From Brucellaceae bacterium (GTDB lineage: Bacteria; Pseudomonadota; Alphaproteobacteria; Rhizobiales; Rhizobiaceae), in assembly GCA_020637775.1 (NCBI GenBank), contig JACKJV010000005.1:186001-250000 (forward strand): a DNA stretch of 64,000 bases, read 5' to 3'. The notes below the pieces were generated by a model. The model ran no database searches. It saw only the letters and a program-made list of their open reading frames with translations, and was not told the DNA's origin. A program made the translations under genes and the position numbers. Below, in pieces: positions 7,561 to 11,112 of the stretch (positions within the stretch are counted from its first letter, which is position 1; every line of letters begins with the position of its first letter).

Positions 7561-8697
7561 CTATGGGGCGCCGGCAGCCTCATGCCATTTCGGACCGAGC
7601 GCGGCGCTGATTGCCGCGCGGCGGGTTGCAGGGCCGAATTGCCGCTCGACAAGGTGACGGCCCGCTTCCGCCAGACGCCGGGCAAGGGCCGGCGTCGTCA
7701 TCACCGCTTCCAGCGCGACGGCGAATTCCCGCGCGTCATCGGCTTTGAGAAAATGGACGCCATCTTCCAACCCGAGGCCCTCGACCGCCTTGCCCGTGGC
7801 AACGACAGGACATCCCACGGCCAGGGCCTCCAGCACCTTGATGCGCGTGCCGCCGCCCTCGCGCAACGGCATGGCCGCCACCTGCGCGGTCTCGTAGACC
7901 GGGCGCAATTCGGGCGGATTCTCGGTCAGGCGATGGCCACGGCTCTCCACCAACCGCTTCAGCTTCGCCTTCGGGCTGCGGCCGCACACATGCAACCGGG
8001 CGCCGGGCAGGCGTTGCTGCAGGCGCGGCATGATGGACTGGCAAAGTTCCAGCACAGCACGCCTGTTCGGCGGGTAGCGCAAGTGCCCGACAAAGAGGAT
8101 ATCCTGTGCCGGCGCCAGGGGCTTGCCGGGCGTTTCCAAACACCATTGCGGCACGGGATTGGCTATGACGCTGACCGGCACTTCGATTCCCAGAGCGCGC
8201 GCATGGTCGTGGTCGCGGGTGGAGCAGGTCCAGATTTCGCCGGCCAGACGGGCGATGCGGCGGTCGGCCTGCCGGGCCGCGGCAAGCCGCCTCGCCCAGA
8301 CAAGAGGCGTCAGCGGACGCAGCGGGCGGGGAAGGCGCGCGCGCAGAACATCCGCCAGCAGGCGGCTCTCGACATTGTGAAAATCGACAATCAGACGCAG
8401 GCCGGGAAATTCAGCCCGTACCGCCTCGACAGCCTGAAGAAGACCGACACCTTCGAACAACACGCAGACCGGCCGCTGCCGGCGGATCGTTTCCAGCAGC
8501 ATCGCGACCTGCGCCGGTTCCAGTTCCGCGACGGTCGGGGCACAAGTCCGCCGGCGTCCTTTTCGCGCAACGGGCCGAAAACTGAAGCAGGCGCTAAAAT
8601 CCAAGGTTGATAAATTACTCAAATTTGTGGCATTGCGGATTTCAGCACCGGACTGGCGTCCATCGTTTTCGAGAATACAGACTTGCAGAAATGACAT
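7561..8697 (-). CDS. GT4-type glycosyltransferase
   Basis: The 378-residue protein has the GT-B fold. The N-terminal region includes SGAEIRNATNLSNL and a DFHNVESRL acceptor-side motif. A linker is followed by a sugar-nucleotide domain starting DILFVGHLRYPPN, with the E-x7-E-like region GGGTRIKVLEALAVGCPVVA near residue 290. Such enzymes transfer hexoses in capsule, exopolysaccharide or LPS assembly. The ATG at 8697 has no obvious ribosome site and overlaps the start codon of the divergent gene; in-frame TTG codons about 27-33 codons downstream are alternatives. AEIRN matches the family's N-terminus, which favours the early start. Confidence 0.82.
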   Translation of the reverse strand: MSFLQVCILENDGRQSGAEIRNATNLSNLSTLDFSACFSFRPVARKGRRRTCAPTVAELEPAQVAMLLETIRRQRPVCVLFEGVGLLQAVEAVRAEFPGLRLIVDFHNVESRLLADVLRARLPRPLRPLTPLVWARRLAAARQADRRIARLAGEIWTCSTRDHDHARALGIEVPVSVIANPVPQWCLETPGKPLAPAQDILFVGHLRYPPNRRAVLELCQSIMPRLQQRLPGARLHVCGRSPKAKLKRLVESRGHRLTENPPELRPVYETAQVAAMPLREGGGTRIKVLEALAVGCPVVATGKAVEGLGLEDGVHFLKADDAREFAVALEAVMTTPALARRLAEAGRHLVERQFGPATRRAAISAALGPKWHEAAGAP

Positions 8698-10307
8698 TTG
8701 AGCGTACCGGCGGCGTTCCCCGCATCATTCACCAGACATGGCGTAGCAGAACCGTTGCGCCCGAGAAAGGGGATCCGGAAAGCTGGAAGCGCCTCAATCC
8801 GGACTGGGAATACCGCTTCTGGACAGATGAGGACCTGCGCGCCTTCATGGCGGAGGAATTCCCGCATCTCATTGATCTGTTTGACGGTTACTCTCTCCCC
8901 GTGCAACGGGCCGACCTTGCCCGCTACTGCATCCTGTACCGGATCGGCGGGCTCTATGCCGACATCGACACGCGTTGCCTGGCCACGGTGGAGCCCCTTG
9001 CCGGCGACGAGCGGGTCATCCTTTGCGAGGAACCCGGAGAGCATCAGCACCATGGCCGTGTGCGCGGCCTGGACACCTTGTTCTTCAACGGCACCATGGC
9101 CTCGCCGCCGGGCCACCCGTTCTGGGAATCGGTCTTGAATCATGTTGTGCTCATGTATCCTCGCCGCGATGCCGATGTCCTCGATACAACCGGGCCTTGT
9201 ATCCTGACCGCCGCCGTTTCGCAGTGGCAGGACCGGGACAGTCTGGCACTGAACTCCTCGCATCTCTTCTCCGGCCTCACCTCGCTCGGCGGGCACACGG
9301 GCGATGCGCGATGGGGTCCCTATGGCCACCTGACCTGCTCGGAGCATCTCTGGCAGGGGAGCTGGATCGACAATGTGAGAATGCCATGGCTGAAGCGGCG
9401 GCGGGCGCAATGGAAGAGGTTCCGTCACGAAGTGCTATCGCGCAGCAAGCGGCTGACCCTTGCGGATGCGCGCAGGCAGATCGATACCGGCCTCTTGACC
9501 CGCCCCCTGCCGCCGGAAGAAAAGCACCCCTCCATCGCGGTCCTCATTCCCGTGCGCAATGGCGAGGCGTTTCTGGAAAACGGCGTGGAGCAGCTTCTGG
9601 CTCTCGACTATCCAAAGGACCGTCTGCACGTCGTTTATGGCGAGGGCGACAGCGAGGACCGCACGCCGGAGGTGATCGCCGAAATCATTGCGCGGCACGG
9701 GGAAACATTCGCCAGCATATCCTCTGTCCGGGTCGAGCGGAACGGGCCGCGCCTCTCGCGCTCGCAGCGCTGGGACACGCGGGCCCAACTGGCGCGCCGT
9801 TCGGGCATAGCCATGGCGCGAAACGACCTGCTGCGGGCAGCGGCCGGGCTGGATGCCGACTGGTTCCTGTGGATCGATGCCGATGTCATCGGCCTGCCCC
9901 GCGACCTGCTGCAAAGGCTGCTGGCGGCAAGGGCCAAGATCGTCACGCCGGATTGCGTGCTGAAACCCGGCGGCGCGAGCTATGACCTGAACGCCTTTCT
10001 CTATATCCGCAAGCCCAGCCGGGCCGAATATTACAGCTACATCCGCCACGGCCTCTTCCAGCCGCCGCTGCAATATCCCCCACGCCGCCATCTGCACGAC
10101 CTGCGCTATCTGGAAAGGGTACCGCTGGACAGCGTCGGCGGCACGGCGCTTCTCGTTCATGGCGACGTCCACCGCGCTGACCTGGACTTTCCCGAGATTC
10201 CGTACCGCGATCTTGTTGAGACCGAGGGATTCGGAACCTTGGCGCGCGATCTCGGTCTCACGCCGATCGGCCTGCCGGGCGTCGAGGTCGTCCATCATGC
10301 GTCCTGA
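8691..10307 (+). CDS. Fused glycosyltransferase: GT32/Och1-type domain plus Anp1/Mnn9-type (GT62-like) domain
   Basis: The 538-residue protein has two catalytic modules. Residues 10-130 match the sugar-binding DXD region of GT32 enzymes (VPRIIHQTW, FWTDEDL, PVQRADLARYCILYRIGG, DID at 91-93). From about residue 280 a second domain starts with VLIPVRNGEAFLENG. It continues with LDYPKDRLHVVYGEGDS, then WIDADV (DAD at 396-398), YDLNAF, DSVGGTALLVHGDVHR and ETEGFGTLARDLG. That ordered set is the signature of fungal Anp1/Van1/Mnn9 mannosyltransferases. I prefer ATG 8691, eight residues before the conserved IIHQTW, over a TTG at 8607. The next gene overlaps by 11 bp. The role is probably in decorating a surface glycan, with a soluble or peripheral location. 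Confidence 0.8.
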   Translation: MTFERTGGVPRIIHQTWRSRTVAPEKGDPESWKRLNPDWEYRFWTDEDLRAFMAEEFPHLIDLFDGYSLPVQRADLARYCILYRIGGLYADIDTRCLATVEPLAGDERVILCEEPGEHQHHGRVRGLDTLFFNGTMASPPGHPFWESVLNHVVLMYPRRDADVLDTTGPCILTAAVSQWQDRDSLALNSSHLFSGLTSLGGHTGDARWGPYGHLTCSEHLWQGSWIDNVRMPWLKRRRAQWKRFRHEVLSRSKRLTLADARRQIDTGLLTRPLPPEEKHPSIAVLIPVRNGEAFLENGVEQLLALDYPKDRLHVVYGEGDSEDRTPEVIAEIIARHGETFASISSVRVERNGPRLSRSQRWDTRAQLARRSGIAMARNDLLRAAAGLDADWFLWIDADVIGLPRDLLQRLLAARAKIVTPDCVLKPGGASYDLNAFLYIRKPSRAEYYSYIRHGLFQPPLQYPPRRHLHDLRYLERVPLDSVGGTALLVHGDVHRADLDFPEIPYRDLVETEGFGTLARDLGLTPIGLPGVEVVHHAS

Positions 10308-11112
10308 CGCCGGTTCATCGGCGACGGTCATCCTCGTGATGACATGCGCCCTGTCCCCGAGGGAACGCCTGACGGCGGCGCGGCGGCAGCTCGACGAGCA
10401 CCTGGGCGACTGGACGGGTCTGTTCGTTCAGGGCGCGGTGGCCGGGGACGATGCCGCGACCCGACTGCTCGATTCGAGCCGGGCCAGAATGTGGTCCAAA
10501 CATCCGCTGACGCCCACGGAGGTCGCTTGTTACACCTCGCACCGGCGGTGCTGGGAGGTCCTGCTGAACGGGCCATGGGAACAGGCCCTGGTGCTGGAAG
10601 ACGATTTCCTGCTTCGCGATCCGGAAACCGTGCGCAAGGCCCTGCATTCCGCCGGCCTGCTGCTGTCGCAGGGGCGCAATCTGGTCAAGCTGTTCGACTA
10701 CCCGCGCAGCCGACCGGATGACTACGGCCTCTCCCGGCATGTGGGTGGCCTGACGCTGATGAAATGGAAGCGGCCAAGGGCCGGAACGGTCGGCTACCTG
10801 GTGTCACGGGACGGTGCGCAGCGTCTGCTCGCGCGGCGCAAGGTCTTCCGGGCCGTGGACGAGGACATCAGGCTGTATTGGGAACTGGGGCTCGATGTCT
10901 GGTCCGTTCCCGGAAACCCGGTGACGGACAATGGCGAAGCGCTGGGCGGCAGCCTGCTGGAGCAGGGACGGCGCAAGTCCCGGAACCGCTTGCGATTGCG
11001 CGCGATCAAGGGCTTTCTGATCGGAGCCTATCGAACCGTGGCAAACCTTGTTGCCTTCCGGCAGGCATTCCGGCGTCAGCAATCCGCCCGCCCGGACCGC
11101 GCTTTGACGTAG
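10297..11112 (+). CDS. Glycosyltransferase family 25 (LPS biosynthesis type)
   Basis: The 271-residue product has the GT25 pattern: TPTEVACYTSHRRCW, then the metal-binding ALVLEDDFLL near residue 100, then GTVGYLVSRDGAQRLL, then a VDEDI acidic motif. Family members add galactose or other sugars to lipooligosaccharide cores. The start at 10297 overlaps the upstream fused glycosyltransferase by 11 bp, which indicates translational coupling; the longer in-frame extension is only shadow of that gene. The basic C-terminus (RRKSRNRLRLRAIKG) may be membrane-associated. It is convergent with the GGDEF gene. Confidence 0.85.
   Translation: MRPDAGSSATVILVMTCALSPRERLTAARRQLDEHLGDWTGLFVQGAVAGDDAATRLLDSSRARMWSKHPLTPTEVACYTSHRRCWEVLLNGPWEQALVLEDDFLLRDPETVRKALHSAGLLLSQGRNLVKLFDYPRSRPDDYGLSRHVGGLTLMKWKRPRAGTVGYLVSRDGAQRLLARRKVFRAVDEDIRLYWELGLDVWSVPGNPVTDNGEALGGSLLEQGRRKSRNRLRLRAIKGFLIGAYRTVANLVAFRQAFRRQQSARPDRALT

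Follow-up and report, generated by a model that had tools for sequence, protein, structure and literature searches.

A bacterial GT32-GT62 glycosyltransferase fusion and its kinship with fungal Mnn9

Glycosyltransferase family 62 (GT62) has so far been treated as fungal; here it is found in bacteria, often inside chains of several transferases. One such gene lies in a 64,000-nucleotide stretch of a Brucellaceae bacterium assembly (contig JACKJV010000005.1, positions 186,001 to 250,000; hereafter the window), where a single frame joins a GT32 domain to a GT62 domain. The original prediction took it for a fusion of Och1-type and Anp1/Mnn9-type enzymes that starts and extends a mannan-like surface glycan, with a possible cross-kingdom history. 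Is it truly one gene, are both active sites intact, how is it related to the fungal enzymes, and what might it make?

Two glycosyltransferase domains in one frame

The fusion frame opens with ATG and runs for 538 codons to a stop with no internal frameshift. The mechanical list of open reading frames offers TTG at 8607 as an earlier start. The parts of the gene are given below in window positions; residue conservation was counted in 195 aligned rows, which were gathered by similarity to the window protein and are neither random nor deduplicated.

8691..10307, + strand: GT32-GT62 fusion gene, 538 amino acids, a single open frame with both Pfam domains above cut-off
8715..9395, + strand: GT32 (Gly_transf_sug) domain, residues about 9-235
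8961..8969, + strand: GT32 DxD motif (D91, D93), both Asp in 195/195 rows
9366..9503, + strand: interdomain linker with a basic helix, residues 226-271 (helix at 233-249 in the model)
9504..10304, + strand: GT62 (Anp1/Mnn9-like) domain, residues 272-538
9795..9797, + strand: R369, counterpart of Mnn9 R209, Arg in 127/133 and 58/62 rows
9876..9884, + strand: GT62 DxD motif (D396, D398), counterparts of Mnn9 D236 and D238; D396 in 132/133 and 58/62 rows, D398 in 127/133 and 58/62
9984..9986, + strand: D432 of the YDLN motif, counterpart of Mnn9 D280, Asp in 131/133 and 59/62 rows
10293..10295, + strand: H535, counterpart of the metal ligand Mnn9 H389, His in 127/133 and 57/62 rows

Both families were recognized in this one bacterial polypeptide, with their metal motifs intact. 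Gly_transf_sug scored 56.0 bits (cut-off 23) over residues 30-108, and Anp1 scored 102.5 bits (E value of 3.6e-29; cut-off 28.8) over residues 274-502. Separate Pfam scans of each half returned the same families as the whole protein, and the motifs cited in the original prediction are all present in the translation, in the order stated there. A generic GT2 identity of the second half was ruled out: the Glycos_transf_2 profile passes its cut-off of 23.3 with 33.6 bits, yet it stays far below Anp1. In a scan with NCBIfam, all matches were far under the curated cut-offs.

Comparison with solved structures agreed with the predicted homology of the second half to fungal Mnn9, since yeast Mnn9 was the best sequence match to the fusion (E value of 7.6e-19, residues 294-535). 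The top match of the first half was an Och1 (E value of 4.4e-5). The structure model of the fusion (predicted local distance difference test, 95.1; predicted template-modeling score, 0.93) gives the GT62 half a predicted GT-A fold of the Mnn9 type. For the GT32 half, the structure scores were 18.2 with Och1 and 18.4 with YeGT. Thus, membership of the first half in GT32 held, whereas an Och1-specific identity was unsupported, the two scores being tied.

The Mnn9 counterparts were read from the solved-structure sequence alignment, with a numbering offset of 90. In one study, the Mnn9 point mutants R209A, D236N, D280N, and H389A were tested in yeast and are presented as catalytically inactive, with loss of activity described for R209A and D236N (PMC3787745); another gives D238 and H389 as metal ligands (PMC9769593). 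Both DxD motifs are kept in 185 of the 195 rows. Among the other 10, 2 end before the site, and 8 are altered in the GT62 DxD with the GT32 DxD intact. These 8 include second copies of the fusion, from Neorhizobium galegae (L010) and Rhizobium straminoryzae (L014), in which the GT62 metal motif is gone and the GT32 motif remains.

No membrane span was apparent in the fusion protein. Linker residues 226-252 carry a mean net charge of +6.8, with +4 or more in 187 of 193 rows; the helical moment of the linker ranked 158th of 520 windows. Membrane binding by the linker was considered and is not relied on, because an equally or more basic stretch of the same length occurs elsewhere in 157 of 193 rows. 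No clear shift in composition was seen at the gene, with a G+C content of 0.638 around it compared with 0.62 to 0.69 in the window.

Distribution and descent

A protein search returned 297 homologues, and both domains were found in 120 of 120 among those listed. Identity to the window protein was 44 to 64% among the matches listed, except for the near-identical P0001. Loci were taken as the best 80 of 178 confirmed in a scan of genome contigs; they were found by similarity and are neither random nor deduplicated. These 80 come mainly from Rhizobiaceae, Mesorhizobium, and Rhodobacterales and relatives, and also include nine Actinomycetota, two Verrucomicrobia bins, one Desulfuromonas, one planctomycete bin, and one gammaproteobacterial bin. 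In a record titled Planctomycetaceae (L005), the fusion pairs with P0022 amid otherwise alphaproteobacterial-type sequences, and this record may be a binning error.

Scans of genome groups gave matches above the cut-off in 2 of 385 genomes (class of G001), 3 of 396 (phylum of G003), 23 of 347 (order of G002), 4 of 292 (order of G006), and 2 of 198 (phylum of G004), counts in which seed genomes are included and some matches are weak. In one of these scans, 11 of the 19 matches of at least 97 bits lay in frames of 533 to 1,159 codons, with both domains in all 3 that were checked, and 8 lay in frames of 258 to 297 codons; stand-alone bacterial GT62 proteins are therefore also common. In bacteria, GT62 is genuine though patchily distributed, and at least two of the phyla that have it, Pseudomonadota and Actinomycetota, are known from cultured strains.

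Larger chains were found as well. Streptomyces (L073 and L078) and Azospirillum lipoferum (L082) have GT32-GT2-GT62 chains of 789 to 844 residues, each followed by a separate GT2 gene. Plasmids of Azospirillum ramasamyi and Azospirillum sp. TSA2s encode GT32-GT2-GT4-GT62 chains of 1,195 residues (L123, 2977-6564; L130, 1154-4741). The three-domain chain of A. lipoferum and the four-domain chain of A. ramasamyi are 88% and 92% identical on the two sides of the GT4 unit, which argues that a whole transferase unit was gained or lost between close relatives. Two more genomes have GT4-GT62 chains (L121 and L122).

In a tree of GT32 domains, 44 two-domain genes (among them the split gene L118, described below) and 12 three- or four-domain chains were separated from 6 stand-alone GT32 proteins at 100/100. 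GT32 and GT62 distances were concordant (Spearman coefficient of 0.78 over 53 rows; 0 of 1,000 permutations). This split and this concordance fit descent from a single GT32...GT62 ancestor into which domains were later inserted or from which they were lost, as judged against a stand-alone GT32 sample of six.

In a 91-row GT62 tree, the 17 fungal rows grouped in a single clade with a long stem (2.27). These rows comprise yeast Mnn9, P0134, P0135, and 14 further proteins; many bear the name Mnn9, and the clades of Van1 and Anp1 were not deliberately sampled. A 100/100 branch parted the fungi from 42 of 43 two-domain fusions, with L068 and the stand-alone row P0124 on the unexpected side of it. 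After removal of 10 long-branched or doubtful rows, the fungi grouped with stand-alone bacterial GT62 at 96/95. Approximately unbiased (AU) tests rejected neither a grouping of fungi with two-domain forms (P = 0.395) nor one with three-domain forms (P = 0.402). Judged by sequence, kinship of bacterial GT62 with fungal Mnn9 is certain. The proposed cross-kingdom history was accordingly borne out as kinship, and its specific branching and direction were not settled by the AU tests.

A wider idea, which we consider doubtful yet worth entertaining, is that these proteins are modular single-chain oligosaccharide synthases, with GT32 first, GT62 last, and GT2 or GT4 slotted between, in which the sequence of domains may reflect that of the sugars, as on an assembly line, and that this bacterial GT62 reservoir was the source of the ascomycete mannan polymerase family.

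Neighboring genes and proposed function

Two further transferase genes flank the fusion.

7561..8697, - strand: divergent GT4-type glycosyltransferase gene, 378 amino acids (Glyco_trans_1_4, 77.6 bits)
10339..11112, + strand: GT25 gene directly downstream (Glyco_transf_25, 49.5 bits); the start is uncertain, with the codon at 10327 as an alternative

The starts of the GT4-type gene and the fusion gene overlap by 7 bases. This head-to-head overlap of start codons, ATGNCAT (window 8691-8697), was seen in 7 of 15 stretches inspected, the window counted in; the others are L001, L003, L004, L006, L008, and L081. With such an overlap, the ribosome-binding and promoter signals of each gene would fall within the opposite gene.

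Neighbors were counted as frames within 3 kb of the 80 loci, with neighbor models at 60 bits or more, so that weak members are missed. A GT4-type frame was present in 55 loci (a lone GT4 in 33 and a GT4 fused to a GT2 in 22), which indicates that other enzymes share the work. A GT25-type frame, also present in Gemmobacter, was found in 9 loci, with 3 further at 38 to 51 bits; tblastn placed GT25 in 11 loci, and the GT25 of L012, found by Pfam, was dropped by the threshold. GT10 was found in 10 loci, a Prim-Pol-like protein in 21, and DUF1349 in 19, labels that come from Pfam on representative proteins. The small Prim-Pol-like protein (PF09250, two representatives) lies beside GT2-GT4 and GT32-GT62 genes in those 21 loci (for example, L071:1526-2185, L034:7116-7796, and L027), and its hosts are Alphaproteobacteria, a Verrucomicrobia bin, and a Desulfuromonas. 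Stand-alone bacterial GT62 genes likewise sit amid glycosyltransferases, as each of L112, L114, and L120 has a GT10-like frame close by. Separately, plasmid stand-alone GT32 genes of Pantoea, Fukatsuia, and Aulosira (L124, L128, and L129) adjoin genes annotated as non-ribosomal peptide synthetase or amino acid adenylation, surroundings that hint at glycosylated peptides.

We favor, as the probable reading, a soluble and probably cytosolic bifunctional glycosyltransferase that adds two successive sugars to a surface glycan built with partner enzymes. Both domains, their predicted folds, the intact active-site residues, and the recurrent GT4 neighbor were observed. From the lack of an apparent membrane span, the two intact GT-A sites, and the partner transferases, we infer a soluble enzyme with two sites; the two activities, the order of steps, the acceptor, and the surface location are part of the same inference. 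GT32 and GT62 are both GT-A families whose known members are retaining. The GT32 half would use a nucleotide sugar to add one residue to an acceptor made ready by partners such as the neighboring GT4 and sometimes a GT2. The GT62 half would add the next sugar at a Mn-dependent site of the Mnn9 type (D396, D398, H535, R369, and D432), and GT25 or GT10 neighbors could add further residues or decorate the product. For the donor of the GT62 half, the best guess is GDP-mannose, by analogy with fungal GT62 members that are reported to use it. Given the GT4 neighbors, the residues contributed by the fusion may well be middle or late ones in the glycan. The product would be a short or repeating surface glycan, such as a lipopolysaccharide core, a capsule, or an exopolysaccharide unit; a mannan-like product is one possibility among several.

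Several points weigh against this reading. We know of no bacterial GT62 with a tested activity, and none was found in the open-licence literature. Alteration of the GT62 DxD with an intact GT32 DxD, in 8 of the 193 rows that reach the site, suggests that the second activity is dispensable in places. No modelled neighbor at 60 bits or more was found within 3 kb in 15 of the 80 loci; some of these lie at contig ends, and a GT25 match of lower score is present in L012 and L016. Of the 20 other window frames scanned (259-28577), 17 have a Pfam family, all metabolic, regulatory, or transport, and none is a flippase, polymerase, or sugar-nucleotide gene, which makes the glycan type a guess. The GT families of the neighbors recur in the Azospirillum chains by Pfam (four families in common). 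However, the GT2 and GT4 domains of those chains are not closely akin to the GT2 and GT4 neighbors, so that the parallel is valid at the family level only.

The mannan-like polymerase of the original prediction, in which the GT32 half would start an alpha-1,6-mannan and the GT62 half would extend it from GDP-mannose, appears unlikely. It draws on the identity of the GT62 site with Mnn9 at the mutated positions and on the fungal use of GDP-mannose, AnpA alone being reported as strongly active. However, fungal mannan polymerase activity is reported to belong to a Mnn9-Van1 pair, and the fusion has one GT62 domain. Och1 is not singled out by the GT32 similarity, and GT4, GT2, GT25, and GT10 neighbors fit a mixed oligosaccharide.

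Similarly unlikely, in our judgment, is that the GT32 half is the sole working transferase and that the GT62 half serves chiefly to hold, activate, or position a complex. Mnn9 is described as an allosteric activator besides its role as primer (PMC3787745), and the rows with an altered DxD point the same way, as the loss always falls on GT62 and never on GT32. Against this, both motifs are intact in the window protein and in 185 of 195 rows, and R369, D432, and H535 hardly vary. That two separate genes were joined by a sequencing or assembly error is next to impossible. In genome G1163, the two domains do occupy separate frames that overlap (L118, 5203-6027 and 5975-6724), which is either a natural split or a sequencing error. 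The open frame, its recurrence in every listed homologue, and the agreement of GT32 and GT62 distances rule out a frameshift or chimera at the window gene.

Comparison with known systems

A 2017 survey, with 52 bacteria and 15 archaea among its genomes, reported PF03452 genes from fungi only (PMC5225481). In a 2022 paper, one Mesorhizobium homologue of Mnn9 served as an outgroup only (PMC9769593); bacterial kin of Mnn9 had thus already been noticed. No account of a bacterial GT32-GT62 fusion was found in the open-licence literature. The GT32 and GT62 families are known, and their combination and the multi-domain chains are new. Bacterial GT62 makes two questions testable, namely, what its product is and whether the ascomycete mannan polymerase descends from bacterial enzymes, and a soluble two-domain protein should be simpler to study than a Golgi complex.

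The GT62 half has the fold, the DxD, the metal-binding His, the catalytic Arg, and the YD-N motif in common with yeast Mnn9/Van1/Anp1 and Aspergillus fumigatus AnpA. In contrast to these fungal enzymes, the window protein is bacterial, has no apparent membrane span, and carries GT32 in the same chain; the Mnn9 and Van1 of A. fumigatus are reported to be separate proteins with presumed transmembrane parts. M-Pol I is a partnership of two different GT62 subunits; one GT62 domain was seen in the fusion and none in the flanking frames scanned (259-28577). With Och1 and Hoc1, the GT32 half shares the Gly_transf_sug domain, the DxD, and the GT-A fold, Och1 being no nearer to it in structure than YeGT.

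Other proteins also carry two GT-A-like domains in one chain. Human LH3 (6fxm) gave a root mean square deviation of 17.5 from the fusion, and its domain arrangement is therefore unlike that of the fusion; the Escherichia coli K4 chondroitin polymerase (2z86) is another such chain. The domains of both are presumably not GT32 and GT62. The four-domain chains of Azospirillum (L123 and L130) and the three-domain chains of Streptomyces (L073 and L078) resemble the window fusion in that GT32 leads and GT62 closes, and they differ from it by one or two extra GT domains (GT2 and GT4) inside.
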